Below, piece by piece: positions 18,413 through 26,772 of a DNA stretch of 64,000 bases. Under the pieces are notes generated by a model. It was not told the DNA's origin. It saw only the letters and a list, made by a program, of their open reading frames with translations, and made no database searches. Source of the DNA: Streptomyces otsuchiensis (lineage in GTDB: Bacteria > Actinomycetota > Actinomycetes > Streptomycetales > Streptomycetaceae). Both the position numbers and the translations under genes were made by a program. Position 1 is the stretch's first letter; each line of letters begins with the position of its first letter. The DNA lies in NCBI RefSeq assembly GCF_004305975.1, contig NZ_BHZI01000001.1, forward strand, positions 16,850-80,849, given 5' to 3'.

Positions 18413-18522
18413 CGTTCAGTCTGGCGGTAGGCGTGACGTTCGGTGACGGTGAGCGATATCGAGCGGACCCGACCTGCCGTGAAGCACAATGTGTGGACGG
18501 AACGGCTGAAAGGGATCACGCG

Positions 18523-18867
18523 ATGAGCGCCGAAGATCTCGAGAAGTACGAGACCGAGATGGAGCTGAAGCTCTATCGGGAGTACCGGGATGTGGTCGGA
18601 CTCTTCACCTACGTGATCGAGACCGATCGGCGCTTCTACCTCACCAACGACTACGAGATGCAGGTGCACTCGGTCCAGGGCGAGGTGTTCTTCGAGGTCT
18701 CGATGGCCGATGCCTGGGTGTGGGACATGTACCGGCCCGCGCGCTTCGTCAAGCAGGTGCGAGTGCTGACCTTCAAGGACGTCAACATCGAGGAGCTCAA
18801 CCGGAACGAGCTCGATCTGACGCAGAACAACGGCTTCAGCGCGGGCAGTGACGGAGGTGCGGGCTGA
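18523..18867 (+). CDS. DUF2469 family protein
   Basis: This 114-residue, strongly acidic protein (MSAEDLEKYETEMELKLYREYRDVVGLFTYVIETDRRFYLTN) is nearly invariant in actinobacteria, where it sits beside lepB/rnhB and yraN (M. tuberculosis Rv2901c). No catalytic motif is known to me. An AAAGGGA sequence lies just upstream of the ATG at 18523. In the order I remember, yraN should follow directly; here an M23 peptidase gene follows instead, which marks the left edge of an inverted block. Confidence 0.88.
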   Translation: MSAEDLEKYETEMELKLYREYRDVVGLFTYVIETDRRFYLTNDYEMQVHSVQGEVFFEVSMADAWVWDMYRPARFVKQVRVLTFKDVNIEELNRNELDLTQNNGFSAGSDGGAG

Positions 18868-18901
18868 CCCGCCTCGCTCCTTTCCACCCGAAAGAGTGAC
18901 G

Positions 18902-18941
18902 GAGTTATCCACAGGTCCTAAGTTTTCCACCAAGATCCACA
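18902..18941 (+). repeat. Left 40-bp inverted repeat with three DnaA-box-like nonamers
   Basis: Three same-direction nonamers, TTATCCACA (18905), TTTTCCACC (18923) and AGATCCACA (18933), start 18 and 10 bp apart. The 40-bp element matches the reverse complement of 25281-25320 at 33 of 40 positions, with identical nonamer spacing. It lies 30 bp before the M23 gene start and 34 bp after the DUF2469 stop. Confidence 0.9.
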
Positions 18942-18971
18942 CGGGGGCGGCCGACGTACGAGTCTGCCCGT

Positions 18972-20156
18972 ATGCACATCTCCCCGCCTGACTTCTCCCG
19001 GCGAGCCATCCGCCGGACCCTGACCACCGCTACCGCCCTGGTGACCTCCACGCTCGTCCTCGGCTCGTTGTGGCTGCCGCTGGCCGCCGCCCTCGCGCGA
19101 GAGGACGGCACCGGCGCGGCGGACGAGCACGCGGTCCCGAACATCCGGTCCGGCCCTGCACCGAGCGGGCGCTCAGAACCGCTCGACGGGACCGAAGGGC
19201 CGGAGGGGGTCTACGGGCCGGTCGAGCCGCAGGCTCAGCCGGCCCGTCACCCCGGCGCGGGCGTCAACCTGACTCCCTACGCCGACACCGCCCACGCTGC
19301 GGACGACCGCCCCGCACACCACGCAACGTCACCGCGATCGGTGCCGTCGGCCGGTCCGGGAGAGCCGGGCGCCGAGCGGTCCGAACCCGATACGCCCGAG
19401 GCGCCCGGACCGACCGGACCGACCGGACCGACCGGACAGGAAGATCAGCCGCTACCGGAACTCGATCCCTTCGGTACGGGCGACACGGGAGCACAGGGTT
19501 CGGCGCTGCCCACAGACGCCGACTGGCCCCTCGGGCCCCGCCCGCAGGTCGTGCGCCGCTGGGATCCGCCGCCCGCCCCCTGGGCGCCCGGCCACCGCGG
19601 CGTGGATCTCGCGGCGAGCCCCGGCACACCGGTCCACGCGGCGCTGGACGGTCACGTCAGCTTCGCCGGCATGGTGGCCGGGCGCGGTGTCGTCGTGATC
19701 GCCATTGACGGGACCGGGCTGCGCATGACACATGAACCGGTGATCCCGTCGGTGGCGGCGGGGCAACGGGTGAGTCGCGGCGAGCCCGTCGGGGTCGTCT
19801 CGGACGGTCCGTACCACTGCCAGGACTCATGCCTGCACTGGGGCCTGCTGGACGGCCGTACCTACCTCGATCCCCTCTCGATCGTCGGCCGGGATCCTTC
19901 CAGGCTGCTGCCCGTCACCGGTGTGCCGCTACCCCCGCCGGAGCACCACCGGGCGCGCGGGCGGAGCGGTGCCGTTCCGGGGCGGCGGTCGTCCGGCCGC
20001 AGCAGGGGCAGTGCCTCAGGAGGCAGGGGTGGGGCGACGCGACCGGGGCCGACGGCGCGAACGGTGGCGGGCGACTCCGTGCCGCGCACGCCCGGCGGCG
20101 TCAGGCCGCGGAGCGGGCGCCGTCCAGCACGAGCCGGACGGCGCGCTCGGCGATGA
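18972..20156 (+). CDS. Secreted M23-family peptidoglycan peptidase
   Basis: The 394-residue precursor has a twin-Arg-containing N-terminus and a hydrophobic signal segment (TATALVTSTLVLGSLWLPLAAALA). A disordered Pro/Thr/Gly linker with a PTGPTGPTG repeat precedes an M23 LytM-like domain at about 200-310: HRGVDLAASPGTPVHAALDGHV with the metal ligands H and D, and CLHWGLLDGRTYLDPL with the catalytic HxG-type histidine. The last 70 residues are an unusual Arg/Gly/Ser-rich tail that runs 56 bp into the oppositely oriented TetR gene. The tail may be a real cell-wall-binding extension or result from lost sequence at the 3' end. Homologues normally lie divergent from rpsB. Confidence 0.85.
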   Translation: MHISPPDFSRRAIRRTLTTATALVTSTLVLGSLWLPLAAALAREDGTGAADEHAVPNIRSGPAPSGRSEPLDGTEGPEGVYGPVEPQAQPARHPGAGVNLTPYADTAHAADDRPAHHATSPRSVPSAGPGEPGAERSEPDTPEAPGPTGPTGPTGQEDQPLPELDPFGTGDTGAQGSALPTDADWPLGPRPQVVRRWDPPPAPWAPGHRGVDLAASPGTPVHAALDGHVSFAGMVAGRGVVVIAIDGTGLRMTHEPVIPSVAAGQRVSRGEPVGVVSDGPYHCQDSCLHWGLLDGRTYLDPLSIVGRDPSRLLPVTGVPLPPPEHHRARGRSGAVPGRRSSGRSRGSASGGRGGATRPGPTARTVAGDSVPRTPGGVRPRSGRRPARAGRRARR

Positions 20157-20691
20157 CCTCGCGGTCCTCGACGCCCAGACCGGCCCGCCGCACCGCGGCG
20201 TCCACCACCCCCTGCAGCAGCACCGCCGTCAGGCGTGGTTCGGACTGCCCCAGATCGGCGAGCACTCGTACCACCAGGTCGATCAGGCTGCCGTGCGCCG
20301 CTCGAATCTGCTCGCGGGCGGCGGCGTCCAGCTCGCTCGCCGCGATGGCGACCACCGCCTGATGCCGCAGGTCTCCCGCAAGCGCCAGCTGCGTGCGGAC
20401 GTAGGCCTCGAGCTGTCGCTCTGGTTCGCCGGCGGAGGCGACGGCGGCCTCCACTTCGGCGGCCCATGCCGGGAAGTCCGTGGCGCAGAGCGCCTCCACC
20501 ACCGCACCGCGTGAACGGAAGTACTCGTAGACCGAAGACCGGGCCAGCCCGGTGCGTTCGGCCAGCGCGGGGAAGGTCAACGCCTTGGTGCCGCCGGAGG
20601 CGAGCAGAGCGCGCGCGGCCTCGAGCAGGGAGTCCCGCTGCTGTCTGCGATGCTCGGCCACGGAGGCCGCCCGGATCCTCGGCACACCCAC
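20101..20691 (-). CDS. TetR-family transcriptional regulator
   Basis: The 196-residue protein starts with a helix-turn-helix (LLEAARALLASGGTKALTFP, ALAERTGLARSSVYEYF) at about 20-65 and a divergent alpha-helical ligand domain. It lies 85 bp downstream of whiG on the same strand and may be co-transcribed with it; the regulated genes are unknown. Its 3' end overlaps the M23 gene tail by 56 bp. Confidence 0.85.
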   Translation of the reverse strand: MGVPRIRAASVAEHRRQQRDSLLEAARALLASGGTKALTFPALAERTGLARSSVYEYFRSRGAVVEALCATDFPAWAAEVEAAVASAGEPERQLEAYVRTQLALAGDLRHQAVVAIAASELDAAAREQIRAAHGSLIDLVVRVLADLGQSEPRLTAVLLQGVVDAAVRRAGLGVEDREVIAERAVRLVLDGARSAA

Positions 20692-20776
20692 AGACTAGAA
20701 CGTGCGGACTCCGGAAGCACCCCTCCCCGGGCATCGGGGTCGCCGCAGGCCGCGCTGCGGTCCCCGTCGTGGGTGC

Positions 20777-21619
20777 TCAGCGGCGTACATCGCTCAACTT
20801 CGCCCGCAGCTGGAGCACCGACTTGCTGTGGATCTGACTGACCCGGCTCTCGGTCACTCCGAGCACCTGCCCGATTTCTGCCAGTGTGAGCCCCTCGTAG
20901 TAGTAGAGCGTCACCACGGTCTTCTCCCGGTGCGGAAGCGTGTTGATCGCCCGTGCCAGCAGACGGCGGAGCTCACGGTCCTCCGCGACCTCGACCGGGT
21001 CGTCCGCGGAGGTGTCCTCCAGCGTGTCCATCAGGCTGAGGTCGCCCTCGCCGCCGACGTGGAGCATCTCCTCCAGCGCCACCATGTTGGCAAGCGACAA
21101 CTGACCGAAAAGGCTGTGGAGTTCCTCGACGGCGATGCCCATCTCCCGCGCGACCTCCGCCTCGCTGGGAGTGCGCCGCAGCGCCGCCTCCAGAGTCGCG
21201 TAGGCGCGCTCGGCCGCACGCGCCTTCTGCCGCACCGAACGGGGAATCCAGTCAAGCGCCCGCAGTTCGTCGATCATGGCGCCACGGATGCGCGTGATGG
21301 CGTATGTCTCGAACTTGATGGAGCGGTCCGGGTCGAACTTCTCGATGGCGTCGATCAGTCCGAAGATCCCCGAGGAGACGAAGTCGGCCTGTTCGACGTT
21401 GGGCGGAAGCCCGACGCTGACCCGCCCCGCCACGTACTTGACCAGCGGCGAGTAGTGCAGGATCAGCTGTTCGCGCAGGCGCTCGTCGCCTGTCGACTTG
21501 TAGGTGTGCCACAGCTCTTCGAGCGTGGTGGGCGAGCGCCGGGGCGCGGCACTCTCCGGCGCGGCCGCGGCCGGTGCTTCCGGAGCCGGTGTGGGGGGCC
21601 CGGGGGTGCGCTGTGGCAT
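20777..21619 (-). CDS. whiG: RNA polymerase sigma factor WhiG (FliA-type)
   Basis: WhiG commits aerial hyphae to sporulation in Streptomyces. The 280-residue protein has sigma region 2 ([60 protein letters not shown]) and region 3 ([20 protein letters not shown]). Region 4 ends in [25 protein letters not shown], the FliA/WhiG signature. The first 30 residues are a Pro/Ala extension. It is followed by TetR and preceded by dprA on the same strand; the 154-bp gap to dprA probably carries its promoter. RsiG/c-di-GMP anti-sigma control is known for the family and not visible here. Confidence 0.95.
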
Positions 21620-21773
21620 GCGTCGTCTGAAACCGTTCTACGGTGGTCTGTGCGAATGGTGCCGGTTCGAGTGGAACCTTGGTGAGCGTAGCGTGACATT
21701 GACGTCGCGTAGCGCATATCGCCCCTGAACGCACATGCGCAGATACGTTCCGCCCACCGCACCGTGGTGTTAC

Positions 21774-23078
21774 TTACCTATCCACGCCTGGGGTGCGCCG
21801 GGGTGCGGGGGAGAGTGCCTCGCGCCGCAGAGCCCATGTCTCGCCGGTTCGTTCGACGAATCCCAGCGCGCGGAGCTCCAACAGCCGTGCAAGAGCAGCC
21901 AACTCACTGACACAGGCGCCGGCCGCGATCTCCCGAACGGCGGCCTCGCCACGAACCGGCACGGCCTCCAGTACTGTGGCCGACGCCTCGTCGAGTAGAT
22001 CCCGCGGGCGTGCCACCGTCGGGGCCGGTTCCGCCAGCTCGCCCATCGCGCCCACCAGTTCGATCACCTCATCGGCCCGTGCCACCAAAACCGCCTCCGC
22101 GCGCAGTAGTTGATGTACGCCCTCGGACTGTGCGGAGAAGACGGAACCCGGCACGCCCATCAGGTGGCGGCCAAGTCGCGCCGCGTGTCGCGCGGTCGCG
22201 AGCGCACCGCTGCGCGGGGCGGCCTCGACGACGACGGTGCCCCGGGTGAGCGCGGCGAGGACGCGATTGCGCTGAAGGAAGCGGTGCCGGGTCGGGTGTT
22301 CGCCGGGAGGCAGCTCGCTCACCACCAGACCGCACTGACGGATCCTCCCCAGCAACTCCCGGTGACCCGCCGGGTATCCGTTGTCGACACCGCAGGCCAG
22401 GACGGCGACGGTCGGGCCACCGGCACGCAGCGCCCCCTGGTGCGCCGCGCCGTCGATCCCGTACGCCGCGCCCGAGACCACGGTCCATCCACGGTCGGCG
22501 AGCGAACGAGCGAGCTCGGCGGTCACATAGCCTCCGTAGTCCGTGCACGCACGCGAACCCACCACCGCCACCGAACGCAGCGCGAGCAGACGGAGCGAGG
22601 CCTCGCCGCGGACCCACAGCCCCGTCGGGCGCGCGGCCCCCAGGTCGTCGAGCTGACTCGGCCACTCCGCGTCACCGGGGCACACGAACCGTGCGCCGCA
22701 GGCCGCGGCGCGCCCGAGGTCCGCCGCCGGGTCGGCACGGTGGGCGCGCAGCCGCATACCCGCCCAGCGCTGCGGCCCGAAGGGCCGGTCCCGACCGTCG
22801 TCGCGCACGGTGTTCCAGGCTGTGACCGGTCCCACTTCGGCGAGCCAGCGCCCCATCACCGCGTCGCCCGGCTCGCCGACGCGTGCCAGAGCCACGCGTG
22901 CCAGTCGTTCCTCCTCCGCCATCGGCGCCTCGGCCGGACCCGGAGGCCGGTAGAGGCCCCGGGCCGGGCCGCCTTCGGATGCTGTCCCTGTCGCAGGTGC
23001 CGTGCCGGGGGTCGGCACTGTCCCCTGGGCCGGTGTCGTCCCGGCGGCCGGGGCCGCGTGGGCGCTCGTGGTCGTCAT
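21774..23078 (-). CDS. dprA: DNA-processing protein DprA
   Basis: DprA loads RecA on single-stranded DNA during transformation in competent bacteria; its role in Streptomyces is unclear. The Rossmann core shows VVGSRACTDYGGYVTAELA, VSGAAYGIDGAAHQGAL, VLACGVDNGYPAGH and RNRVLAALTRGTVVVEAAPR, followed by a C-terminal winged-helix domain. The first 52 residues are a Thr/Pro/Ala repeat (GTTPAQGTVPTPGTAPATGT); an internal ATG at 22922 with GAGG ahead would give a 382-residue protein of normal length. It is downstream of comM by 163 bp. Confidence 0.92.
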   Translation of the reverse strand: MTTTSAHAAPAAGTTPAQGTVPTPGTAPATGTASEGGPARGLYRPPGPAEAPMAEEERLARVALARVGEPGDAVMGRWLAEVGPVTAWNTVRDDGRDRPFGPQRWAGMRLRAHRADPAADLGRAAACGARFVCPGDAEWPSQLDDLGAARPTGLWVRGEASLRLLALRSVAVVGSRACTDYGGYVTAELARSLADRGWTVVSGAAYGIDGAAHQGALRAGGPTVAVLACGVDNGYPAGHRELLGRIRQCGLVVSELPPGEHPTRHRFLQRNRVLAALTRGTVVVEAAPRSGALATARHAARLGRHLMGVPGSVFSAQSEGVHQLLRAEAVLVARADEVIELVGAMGELAEPAPTVARPRDLLDEASATVLEAVPVRGEAAVREIAAGACVSELAALARLLELRALGFVERTGETWALRREALSPAPRRTPGVDR

Positions 23079-23241
23079 GGGAGCCGCCTCTCTCCTTGTC
23101 TCGTCACTTCATGCCAGGCAGTGGACCTGGCCCCGGATCCGCCCCGGACGCCGGGGCCCCGGGTGGACTTCTCCGCCTTACGGGAAGGCCGTCCACCAGT
23201 CGTGAGGCGGACCGTCCGCCGGCCGGGCGGGCGATCGCCGG

Positions 23242-24840
23242 TCACGGGAGGCTCCCCACCAGCCCGGCGCCGCGCGCCACTCCCGTGCGCAGCGCGAGCG
23301 CGGCATCGACATCGGCGGCCGTCGGACGGTCGTGACCCGCGAGGTCCGCGACCGTCCACGCCACGCGCAGTACGCGGTCCAGGCCGCGAGCCGTGAGCAG
23401 ACCCCGGTCCATGTCGCGTTCCGCGCGTACCAGCGCGCCCGGCGCCGGTGCCCATCGGCCGCGCAGCTCGTGCCCGGGTACCGCGCTGTTGACCCGCCAC
23501 GGAAACCCCTCGTAGCGCGCCGCAGCGCGTTCCCGCGCGGCGGCGACCCGGCCGGCGACCGTCGCCGTGGACTCGCTCTCCCCGGCGGCGAGCAGCTCCG
23601 CCCGGCTCACCGGCTCCACCGGCACCCGCAGATCGACGCGGTCCAGCAACGGTCCGGACAGCCGCGCGCGATAGCGCCGTACCGCGCTGGGAGGACACTC
23701 GCACCCACCTCCGGGCGCGCCGTGCCTGCCGCACGGACAGGGGTTGGCCGCGAGGACCAGCAGCAGGCGGGCGGGCAGCCGCATGACGCCCGCCGACCGG
23801 GCGATCACGACCTGGCCCGACTCGAGCGGCTGCCGGAGTGCGTCCAGCGCTCGGCTGCTCATCTCGGCCGCCTCGTCGATGAAGAGCACACCGTGATGGG
23901 CGAGGGACACGGCTCCTGGGCGGGGTGTGCCCGTGCCGCCGCCCACCAGCGCGGCCATCGACGCGGAGTGGTGCGGGGCGCAGTAGGGCGGGCGTTCCAC
24001 CAGTGGCCGCCCGGCGGGGAGAGTGCCGCTGACCGAGTGGACCGCGGTCGCCTCCAGCGCCTCCTGGCGTGTCAGTGGTGGCAGCAGCCCCGGCAGCCGT
24101 TCCGCGAGCATGGTCTTGCCGGCGCCCGGGGTCCCTTTGAGAAAGAGATGGTGGCGCCCCGCCGCCGAGACCTCCAGCGCGCGGCGTGCCGAACGCTGTC
24201 CGGCGACCTCCGCCAGATCCGGCGTGTGGTCGCCACCGGTCACGCCGTCGCAGAGCCCGGCCGCGGCGCCCGGAGGCAGCACCCCCGAGAGGTCCGGCCC
24301 CTCCGGAGGTGGCTCATCGGGCACGGGCGTGCCGTTCAAAACGGCCACGAGCTGTCGCAGGCTCCGCACCCCGAGGACCGCGACACCCGGAACCAGAGCG
24401 GCCTCGGCCGCGGTGGACTCGGCCACCACGACCTGTCGGTACCCCGCCTCCGCGGCTGCGAGCACGGCCGGGAGAACACCGCGCACCGGACGGATGCGGC
24501 CGTCGAGACCCAGCTCGCCGATCATCACCAGATCGGCGACGGCCGAGGGCTCCACCTGCTCGGCGGCCGCGAGCGTCGCGCAGGCGACGGCCAGGTCGAA
24601 ACCGCTGCCGGCCTTCGGCAGTGAAGCAGGACTCAGTGCCACGGTCAGTTTCTTCTGTGGCCAGGGCACCCCGGAGTTGATGACAGCGGAACGGACACGG
24701 TCCCGGCTCTCGCTCAGCGACTTGTCCACCAGCCCGACCAGGGTGAAAGCGGCGACCCCCGGTTCGAGGTCGGCCTGCACCTCGACCACGACGCCCTCGA
24801 CCCCGGTCACCGCGACGGAGCACGTCCGCGCGAACGGCAT
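23242..24840 (-). CDS. comM: ComM/YifB-type Mg-chelatase-like ATPase
   Basis: ComM is a hexameric helicase that helps branch migration when DNA is integrated in transformable bacteria. The 532-residue product starts at ATG 24840 ([20 protein letters not shown]), sharing one base with the yraN stop (TGATG). An N-terminal Lon-like domain (GLVDKSLSESRDRVRSA), the Walker A GTPGAGKTMLAERLPGLLPP, the Walker B GVLFIDEAAEM and a C-terminal zinc-like CPCGRHGAPGGGCEC motif are present. The open frame extends upstream to 25425 in non-conserved sequence, which is discarded. Confidence 0.94.
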   Translation of the reverse strand: MPFARTCSVAVTGVEGVVVEVQADLEPGVAAFTLVGLVDKSLSESRDRVRSAVINSGVPWPQKKLTVALSPASLPKAGSGFDLAVACATLAAAEQVEPSAVADLVMIGELGLDGRIRPVRGVLPAVLAAAEAGYRQVVVAESTAAEAALVPGVAVLGVRSLRQLVAVLNGTPVPDEPPPEGPDLSGVLPPGAAAGLCDGVTGGDHTPDLAEVAGQRSARRALEVSAAGRHHLFLKGTPGAGKTMLAERLPGLLPPLTRQEALEATAVHSVSGTLPAGRPLVERPPYCAPHHSASMAALVGGGTGTPRPGAVSLAHHGVLFIDEAAEMSSRALDALRQPLESGQVVIARSAGVMRLPARLLLVLAANPCPCGRHGAPGGGCECPPSAVRRYRARLSGPLLDRVDLRVPVEPVSRAELLAAGESESTATVAGRVAAARERAAARYEGFPWRVNSAVPGHELRGRWAPAPGALVRAERDMDRGLLTARGLDRVLRVAWTVADLAGHDRPTAADVDAALALRTGVARGAGLVGSLP

Positions 24841-25235
24841 CACGCCACCCCCCTGGCGTGCTCGATGAGGGGAGCGCCTCGGCGCGGCAGCGTCACACCC
24901 ACCAGATCGATCCGGACCCCGCCCGCCGGGAGATCCCGGTGTTCGGGCAGCCAGCGATCGGCGAGCCAACGTTCCGACAGCTCCCGCAGCCGCGACAGCT
25001 GCCGCGGGCCCAGCCCGGCCATCGGATGCTGGTATCCACCGGCTCTCCGCGTCTTCACCTCGCACACGATGACGGTGACTCCGGTGGCCTCCGGGCCCGG
25101 ATCCTCGCGGGCCACGATGTCGATCTCTCCCGCGCGGCACCGCCAGTTGCGGTCCATGATCGTCATCCCCGCATCGCCCAGGCTTCGAGCCGCGAGTCGT
25201 TCGCCGTACCGTCCGAGCGCTCCTCGTTCGTTCAT
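24840..25235 (-). CDS. yraN: YraN/UPF0102 endonuclease-like protein
   Basis: The 131-residue protein belongs to the restriction-endonuclease-like UPF0102 family: [20 protein letters not shown], then [12 protein letters not shown] and [17 protein letters not shown], which supply the D...ExK-type active-site residues. It leads the yraN-comM-dprA set, and its stop overlaps the comM start by one base. Its start codon lies 46 bp inside the right inverted repeat. Confidence 0.93.
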
Positions 25236-25280
25236 GGCGCCTCACCTCCGTGACCGACAGTGACGCAGTCCGGCGGACGC

Positions 25281-25320
25281 TGTGGATCTTGGTGGACAAC
25301 CGGCTCCCTGTGGATAACTC
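25281..25320 (-). repeat. Right 40-bp inverted repeat with three DnaA-box-like nonamers
   Basis: Read on the minus strand, TTATCCACA (25317-25309), TTGTCCACC (25299-25291) and AGATCCACA (25289-25281) start 18 and 10 bp apart, exactly as in the left copy at 18902-18941. TTGTCCACC differs by one base from the Streptomyces DnaA-box consensus TTGTCCACA. Confidence 0.9.
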
Positions 25321-25833
25321 GGCCACCCTCAGGAGTGAGGCGAGCTGTCCCGCTGACGGCGCGGCCCCCCGCGTGCGCCCTGTCGGCAGAGCGCTGGCGG
25401 AGCGCCGGAGGAGCACCCCAACCACGCCCTGCAGCGCGGCTGGTGCGCGCCGGGCAAGCGCCCGCGCGCCGACCGGAGCGACACCCCCTCACCTGCTCCT
25501 CTGCCAGGCCCGGTGAGGCGCCAGGTGTCACGCGTGCACCCTGGAGTGCGTACCTCGGCGCCCGCGCCGCCACCGCACGCCTGCCCTGCCCATCGGTGGT
25601 CTCCGGGCCGGTCGCCCGAGGCCTTCCCGGTCCCGTACACTTTCCCTGGCGATCCGGGTCCCGGATCGACCTCGCATGCCCCGCCACCGGCCCGGCGACA
25701 CCGGACCGGAGGCCGCGTTTCTCGGTCCGCGGGCGCCCTCAACAGCGCTCACGGTAGGACGCGCAGGGGCGTCAGGAGCGTCGCCCGTCCCGGGTGGCGC
25801 TGACAACCGAGTCACACCCCAAGGAGAACGGCC
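25321..25833 (+). other. rpsB promoter and leader region
   Basis: Most of the 598-bp yraN-rpsB gap. It contains no supported gene. TACACT at 25636-25641 is a candidate -10, which would give an untranslated leader of about 185 nt; no clear -35 was found. A small inverted repeat (GATCCGGG/CCCGGATC, 25651-25667) lies at the predicted leader start, and AAGGAGA stands just before the rpsB ATG. Autogenous control of rpsB-tsf by S2 is known elsewhere but not demonstrable here. Confidence 0.5.
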
Positions 25834-26772
25834 ATGGCCGTCGTCACGATGCGGGAGCTGCTGGAGAGCGGCGTCCACTTCGGGCACCAGACCCGTCGCT
25901 GGAACCCGAAGATGAAGCGCTTCATCTTCACCGAGCGCAACGGCATCTACATCATCGACCTGCTCCAGTCGCTGTCGTACATCGACCGCGCCTACGAGTT
26001 CGTCAAGGAGACCGTCGCCCACGGCGGTGCCGTGATGTTCGTCGGTACCAAGAAGCAGGCCCAGCAGACCATCGCCGAGCAGGCGACCCGGGTCGGCATG
26101 CCCTACGTGAACCAGCGCTGGCTGGGCGGCATGCTCACCAACTTCTCGACCGTCCACAAGCGTCTGCAGCGGCTCAAGGAGCTGGAGCAGATCGACTTCG
26201 AGGACGTCGCCGCCTCCGGTCTGACCAAGAAGGAGCTCCTGGTCCTCTCCCGCGAGAAGGCCAAGCTGGAGAAGACCCTCGGTGGTATCCGCGACATGCA
26301 GAAGGTGCCCAGCGCCGTCTGGATCGTGGACACCAAGAAGGAGCACATCGCGGTCGGTGAGGCCCGGAAGCTCAACATCCCGGTCGTCGCGATCCTCGAC
26401 ACCAACTGCGACCCCGACGAGGTCGACTACAAGATCCCCGGCAACGACGACGCGATCCGCTCCGTCACGCTGCTCACCCGTGTGATCGCCGACGCCGTGG
26501 CCGAGGGCCTCATCGCCCGCTCCGGCGCCGCGACCGCGGCCAAGGAGGGCGACAAGCCCGCCGCTGAGCCGCTGCCCGAGTGGGAGCGGGAGCTTCTCGA
26601 GGGTGCCGAGGCGAAGGCCGAGTCCGCCCCCGCCGAGGGTGGCGAGGAGACCGCGGCCGCCGAGGCCCCCGCGACGGAGACCCCCGTCGCCGAGGCGCCT
26701 GCCGCTGAGGCTCCGGCCGCCGAGGCGCCCGCCGCCGACGCCGCGACCGAGGCCCCCGCCGAGCAGGGCTGA
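25834..26772 (+). CDS. rpsB: Ribosomal protein uS2
   Basis: The 312-residue protein has the full uS2 core ([70 protein letters not shown]). After about residue 255 there is a repetitive Ala/Glu/Pro tail ([20 protein letters not shown]), typical of Streptomyces S2. A good Shine-Dalgarno precedes the ATG. tsf follows across a strong hairpin, giving the universal rpsB-tsf pair. Confidence 0.97.

Follow-up and report, generated by a model that had tools for sequence, protein, structure and literature searches.

Candidate cis-elements of a DNA-uptake regulon in Streptomyces, and an inverted block between two of them in one clade

In the late competence regulons of Bacillus subtilis (ComK) and Streptococcus (SigX/ComX), one short cis-element is common to genes for DNA uptake, single-stranded DNA (ssDNA) binding and recombination. 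DnaA-box clusters also occur outside the replication origin (oriC), with cases from B. subtilis and Escherichia coli in which DnaA acts as a transcription factor, and chromosomal inversions arise by recombination between short inverted repeats. Here we consider a 64,000-nucleotide stretch of Streptomyces otsuchiensis (contig NZ_BHZI01000001.1, positions 16,850 to 80,849; hereafter the window, numbered from its first letter), in which a block containing yraN, comM and dprA is bounded by two inverted repeats. The initial annotation of this stretch had read the repeats as the sites at which the block was flipped.

A comparable uptake system is the natural transformation of Micrococcus luteus, which involves a Flp/Tad pilus together with comEA/comEC (excerpts of PMC4322843, PMC8467076 and PMC12849477; the second also mentions SigX recognition). 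Passages of PMC12849477, from 2026, call competence regulation in Actinomycetota poorly understood and describe the upstream signal and regulatory cascade of M. luteus as not yet identified, and in Kitasatospora the role of comEA/comEC is called unknown in a passage of PMC9500057, which describes walled cells as lacking uptake. In searches of open-licence PMC papers, the titles and first lines of abstracts returned contained no report of a Streptomyces competence regulon, of an element such as the one described here, or of this inversion. We think it likely that the two repeats are cis-elements to which DnaA probably binds and which define a DNA-uptake regulon of actinobacteria, and that the block was flipped at two such copies in one clade. 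The repeats would then outweigh the inversion in importance, as the visible ends of a regulon.

The repeat pair and its genome-wide counterparts

A repeat search of positions 18500-25700 returned, as the longest inverted repeat, arms at 18893-18941 and 25281-25329 (49 nt, 80% complementary); the other inverted pairs among the matches listed (25 of 29) were at most 30 nt long. The arms lie one in each of two intergenic gaps, about 104 bp between the DUF2469 and M23 peptidase genes and 599 bp between yraN and rpsB. The best inverted 40-mer match between these gaps was 33/40, against 20-24 in 20 mononucleotide shuffles, which is the agreement that the initial annotation had given for 18902-18941 and the reverse complement of 25281-25320. 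Its nonamer spacings of 18 and 10 bp were recovered as well, with boxes of the left element starting at 18905, 18923 and 18933. The nonamers of the pair read TTATCCACA, then TTTTCCACC or TTGTCCACC, then AGATCCACA, and the first two look like DnaA boxes. The positions below include matches to R1, a profile trained solely on elements upstream of yraN and M23 (49 of 56 chosen elements, seven odd ones having been dropped by eye); G000 is the window's genome.

18893-18933, forward strand: left element, with a GGGTGA-like half, box 1 at 18905-18913 and box 2 at 18923-18931, facing the M23 gene (R1 match G000:C1:35742-35782, E 2.7e-6; box starts)
18933-18941, forward strand: third, weaker box of the left element, AGATCCACA (from the sequence)
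25289-25329, reverse strand: right element, with box 1 at 25309-25317 and box 2 at 25291-25299, facing yraN (R1 match G000:C1:42138-42178, E 1.7e-9)
25281-25289, reverse strand: third, weaker box of the right element, AGATCCACA (from the sequence)

The element has the consensus CGGGTGACGGAGTTnTCCACAACCGGCnGGTTGTCCACAGA: a GGGTGA(C) half-dyad is followed by a pair of DnaA-type boxes, TTNTCCACA, that start 18 bp from each other, and a weak third box is often present as well. It scored at least 14 of 17 in 141/164 windows upstream of yraN and 119/135 upstream of M23, in genomes with the ancestral gene order described below as well as in inverted ones, and the box spacing was exactly 18 in 129 of the 135 pairs (<=40 bp) upstream of these two genes, loci present twice being counted both times. 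Among 17 loci from the family's other genera, yraN had one or more boxes upstream in 13/17 and M23 in 13 of the 14 loci that contain it, pairs not always being present. Because elements occur upstream of yraN and M23 in ancestral genomes and in other genera, they predate the inversion. The pair that the initial annotation described is real; what that account missed is that the repeats are older than the inversion and belong to a genome-wide set before DNA-uptake genes. Creation of the repeats by the inversion is ruled out, as both positions carry elements in ancestral genomes, and elements specific to this locus are ruled out by the genome-wide two-box pattern and profile matches.

The strict two-box pattern occurred at 77 sites in 18/31 genomes, among them 15 of the 19 Streptomyces, while its mirrored form had none. 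We searched 12 genomes, 11 from the genus and one from another genus, with R1 and obtained 15-28 matches per genome at E<=1 and 89 sites in all at E<=0.005; with the mirrored profile R2, none of these 12 genomes yielded a match below E 0.06. Families were assigned solely for the sites at E<=0.005, with genes up to 900 bp away accepted and strand relaxed for 30 loci of unsure orientation. Nine families were preceded by 78 of the 89 sites, and the other 11 lay elsewhere. For 69 of the 78 the next gene was identified with tblastn, and the remaining 9 were placed through position or synteny. These 78 sites, set against the mirrored control, bear out a cis-element shared among uptake and processing genes. 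Inspection by eye did not establish a promoter -10 motif shared by every member.

The script assigned 73 of these sites (the 69 from tblastn and 4 by position at the yraN/M23 locus): tadZ 11, yraN 10, M23 10, comEA 10, RcpC-like 9, SSB 9, parA 7, DUF6099 4 and recA 3. Five more were added by position or synteny, namely at M23 in G074 (beyond the 900-bp limit), at yraN and in the SSB neighbourhood of G288, before mscL in G080, and after degV in G000, where comEA is expected and the contig ends. The names matched near sites were ComEA, Ssd/TadZ, TadA, SSB, RcpC, ParA, RecA, DegV and MscL, and the member families include the yraN-comM-dprA and tadZ/ssd-tadA units. In the three genomes checked, a ComEC domain starts 2.2-2.4 kb downstream of the comEA element. 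The gene adjoining mscL matches RcpC/CpaB just under the cut-off; the ParA-type gene, found in 7/12 genomes, has family matches below the cut-off; and the SSB member is a paralogue.

recA carries a half site. A single box precedes it at all 19 Streptomyces loci, with a score above 50 shuffles in 16/19 and a scored window that starts 120-122 nt before the protein match in 18/19, and no such box was found at 10 loci of another family of the order (f3). A second recA copy lies at G005:C1:603323-604303 (91% to the query). The ComEC domain PF03772 is present in 56/61 genomes of the genus, including that of the window, where it falls in an 864-aa open frame.

The element also precedes genes for DUF6099 (PF19594, about 150 aa, no known function) in several genomes (L234, L236, L251, L271 and L280); the Pfam match was tested on L234, and the other four cluster with the L234 protein. 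DUF6099 is therefore a candidate member of the uptake set.

Outside Streptomyces the sites thin out. When 118 genomes from the class were scanned at E<=0.001, the eight Streptomyces listed had 6-11 sites each, 19/110 others had one to three, and 71 genomes were without a match. Six of the 19 loci listed from outside the genus precede tadZ-tadA, ssb, recA (three) or an RcpC/SAF gene, and pattern matches in two further families precede tadZ-tadA and comEA, among others that do not.

Non-Streptomyces sites: tadZ-tadA, L281 and L379; comEA, L289; ssb, L380; RcpC/SAF gene, L383; recA, L382, L384 and L394

At L281:7365, in another family, a second element of the tad region precedes a small DUF4244 gene, whose product is perhaps a pilin. 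In three genomes of other families (L288, L290 and L378), a double-box site adjoins a crgA-like gene, a cell-division gene outside the uptake set; the L378 gene matches CrgA models below the cut-off, and those of L288 and L290 were judged crgA-like by eye.

Regulator and role of the putative regulon

The DnaA-box consensus is TTGTCCACA, and we asked how the element boxes compare with it and with the boxes of oriC. At the oriC (dnaN) loci of the 12 genomes, the densest kilobase held 12-19 near-matches to TTGTCCACA, against 0-3 in whole shuffled loci; the strict form T[TG]NTCCACA occurred 1-5 times per dnaN locus, and the first oriC loci (L291-L294) likewise had few boxes by the strict pattern. 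The element boxes are closer to TTGTCCACA than most oriC boxes are, though they were chosen by that pattern, and the oriC boxes printed were irregularly spaced, unlike the 18-bp pairs of the elements. The elements are double DnaA-box-like sites, and DnaA probably binds them. The window's genome also has a second dnaN-like gene (G000:C24:29042-30154, 158.5 bits).

In the mechanism that we prefer, the element would be a transcriptional operator of DNA-uptake genes, and the regulon would be controlled by DnaA, perhaps jointly with a partner that binds the GGGTGA half-dyad, the sign of that regulation being presumptive. Because DnaA would bind the element, the uptake genes would respond to the replication state. 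The machine encoded by the regulon would be of the Flp/Tad-pilus type, comprising comEA with comEC behind it, tadZ-tadA, an RcpC/CpaB-like gene, yraN-comM-dprA, the SSB paralogue, recA and the M23 wall peptidase, with the ParA-type gene and DUF6099 as further putative members and competence as the likely output. Two copies face each other across 6.4 kb and most likely recombined, flipping the block in the ancestor of one Streptomyces clade; each unit kept or received an equivalent element, and this would account for the flip being tolerated. We put forward more tentatively, as possible, that a complete competence programme based on the Tad pilus is under the master control of DnaA in Streptomyces and related bacteria; the state of replication initiation would then switch on uptake, and Streptomyces cells would be naturally transformable under conditions that load the boxes.

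Several observations weigh against this reading. The strict two-box pattern has no site in 4/19 Streptomyces (G003, G004, G010 and G015), 30 of the 108 family-by-genome cells are empty (78/108 filled), and 13 of the 19 loci listed from outside the genus lie elsewhere, for example at DnaA/oriC, CrgA, DinB and MnmA. Perfect boxes are rare at oriC, and the elements were picked by that pattern. PF03772 also occurs in 10/14 control genomes, E. coli included, and its presence is a weak test because the controls carry it too. The ParA-type and SSB genes would also suit a segregation or a sporulation/stress programme. Walled cells of Kitasatospora viridifaciens, from a related genus, took up no DNA, and DNA uptake by L-forms was independent of comEA/comEC, according to passages of PMC9500057. 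As to the flip, any inversion that spared genes would break near elements, as both gaps hold them.

The strongest competing idea, possible yet short of probable, is that the boxes are bound by a dedicated activator other than DnaA that recognises a DnaA-like direct repeat at 18-bp spacing. A rigid spacing (129/135) and a GGGTGA half-dyad would suit such a protein, given that the oriC boxes printed are irregularly spaced; the fit of the boxes to TTGTCCACA, near-matches to which are dense at oriC, argues for DnaA. The search for a candidate regulator was confined to neighbouring genes.

It is unlikely, if conceivable, that the same elements serve a programme of replication stress or chromosome segregation, for example in sporulation, with the uptake genes working in repair and recombination. 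That the ParA-type gene (7/12 genomes) and the SSB paralogue are members and that recA has a box would fit this idea, as would S. coelicolor ssbB, described in part of PMC6637917 as a poorly transcribed sporulation and/or stress gene. However, comEA, tadZ-tadA and the RcpC-like genes have no evident role in segregation, and transformation in M. luteus requires tad genes (passages of PMC4322843). We regard it as quite improbable that the sites titrate or reactivate DnaA in the manner of datA or DARS, with the proximity to uptake genes incidental: the boxes are high-scoring and number a handful per genome, but in most of the 12 genomes the same genes have the sites on the same side, and in other families some of those genes have them too.

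Age and course of the inversion

The block and its flanking genes are as follows.

18523-18867, forward strand: DUF2469 gene, left outer marker (PF10611, 171.7 bits)
18942-25280, no strand assigned: inverted block between the elements, about 6.4 kb (gene order compared with relatives)
18972-20156, forward strand: M23 peptidase gene (PF01551, Peptidase_M23, 50.1 bits)
20101-20691, reverse strand: TetR-like regulator gene (weak NCBIfam TetR matches, all below cut-off)
20777-21619, reverse strand: whiG sigma factor gene (NCBIfam NF004935, 419.8 bits, cut-off 343)
21774-23078, reverse strand: dprA gene (NCBIfam TIGR00732, 215 bits, cut-off 191)
23242-24843, reverse strand: comM (YifB) gene (NCBIfam TIGR00368, 445 bits, cut-off 362)
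24840-25235, reverse strand: yraN gene (NCBIfam NF009154, 129.6 bits, cut-off 109)
25834-26772, forward strand: rpsB gene, right outer marker (NCBIfam TIGR01011, RpsB, 355 bits, cut-off 76)

The genes named in and beside the block also include one with a Pfam Peptidase_S26 match.

We located comM in 294 of 295 genomes of the genus and compared gene order at 60 loci (best comM matches first), at 80 named loci, and at 40 more that included other genera and another family. The 60- and 80-locus samples were picked by comM similarity to the window, not at random, and some genomes are in both. The window's order occurred in 8/60 loci and in 13/80 named loci (L128 cannot be judged), its named carriers including S. 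bohaiensis, lonarensis, spiramenti, radicis, avicenniae, hainanensis, harbinensis and sedi. The remaining loci, as far as their flanks reach, have the usual Streptomyces order, DUF2469-yraN-comM-dprA-whiG-tetR-M23-rpsB with M23 pointing the opposite way. Where contained, the ancestral DUF2469-yraN or M23-rpsB neighbourhoods are kept in other genera of the family (L141-L157) and in another family of the order (L160 and L162-L166), so the window's arrangement is the derived one. The flip that the initial annotation had proposed is thus upheld, since the window's order is reversed relative to the usual one and the DUF2469-yraN and M23-rpsB junctions of the usual order are ancestral; both arrangements exist within Streptomyces, with breakpoints in the gaps that hold the repeats.

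To place the change, we used a quick maximum-likelihood tree of five concatenated proteins, with 120 distinct rows having at least 4 of the 5 genes and one long-branched inverted row (L098) included. The 18 inverted rows form one clade (SH-like approximate likelihood-ratio test, SH-aLRT, 100) with one state change on the tree; rows within the clade are inverted in 18/18 cases and all other rows uninverted in 102/102. Relatives of the window are over-represented in the samples, so 18/120 is not a frequency for the genus. The inversion is old, fixed and confined to one small Streptomyces clade. A change in the context of whiG, also suggested in the initial annotation, was not found: whiG remains in a unit with yraN-comM-dprA, and its immediate context is unchanged.

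The element sub-types, counted where the element scores at least 13, bear on where the exchange took place. Directly after box 2, the motif CCAAGATC is present in 68/126 ancestral elements on the DUF2469 side and in 0/108 on the rpsB side. In the larger inverted sub-clade it stands on the rpsB side in 10/13, with the other type on the DUF2469 side in 11/11, whereas in the window's sub-clade it stands on the DUF2469 side in 4/4, with the other type on the rpsB side in 4/5; in the window, both ends of the block carry it. The stretch GGTCCCGTACACTT at 25629-25642 stays with rpsB in both arrangements, at the loci printed far enough. The motif moved with yraN in one sub-clade but remained beside DUF2469 in the other, so the exchange of sequence took place at the elements or within them, either by one inversion with conversion or by two inversions in sister lineages.

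Two parallel inversions, one per sister sub-clade, would account for the opposite placement of CCAAGATC in the two sub-clades, but a single event is simpler on the tree, and the presence of the motif on both sides of the window's block can also be put down to gene conversion; we consider the parallel course rather unlikely. Most likely, recombination at the inverted copies flipped the block in the ancestor of the clade. This agrees in part with the initial annotation: the breakpoints do lie in the gaps that hold elements, and the exchange of sub-types favours recombination between the repeats but falls short of proof, as elements lie in both gaps anyway, and the breakpoints are located to the gaps rather than to single bases. 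A reversible inversion switch, which inverted repeats at both block ends and exchange at the elements might suggest and which the initial annotation had thought possible, is highly improbable given one change on the tree, no flip back to the ancestral order among the 18 inverted rows in this species-level sampling, and no recombinase among the nine genes named in and beside the block, the search for one having been confined to those genes.

Other rearrangements touch the same genes. In the complete genome G012 (L295, L188), comM-whiG-tetR lies about 1.2 Mb from rpsB, with the break after tetR and not at the yraN element. At the f3 loci (L160, L162-L166), M23 is co-directional with rpsB, opposite to its direction in Streptomycetaceae, and the orientation of M23 itself therefore changed in deeper history. 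Two comM matches were found in 18/295 genomes of the genus (G013, G186, G208, G213 and 14 more), and in the four named 13-29 kb separate the two pieces, as if mobile elements had inserted into comM.

Comparison with known systems

In each genome a 43-nt element marks a large part of the set of uptake and recombination genes, and it would give a direct handle on its binder, on timing and on DNA uptake. If our reading is right, the recognition sequence of the replication initiator would be linked to DNA uptake, and the sharing of an operator may give rise to an inversion that becomes fixed in the chromosome.

Like the ComK and SigX/ComX regulons, the set described here has one short cis-element common to uptake, ssDNA-binding and recombination genes; unlike them, its element is a double DnaA-type box and its pilus would be of the Tad type, and no counterpart of ComK or SigX is invoked. 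The boxes fit TTNTCCACA, as in DnaA-box clusters outside oriC, yet here they form pairs at a fixed 18 bp, with a GGGTGA half-dyad, before a functionally coherent gene set. The block resembles other inversions between inverted repeats in that its breakpoints fall in gaps with inverted copies and that sub-types have been exchanged between the copies; it differs in that the copies are conserved elements of a regulatory type rather than mobile elements and that the inversion is fixed in a clade. The passages of PMC4322843, PMC8467076 and PMC12849477 name no shared element for M. luteus, with which the set has in common, in its gene content, the type of machine, tad genes with comEA/comEC.

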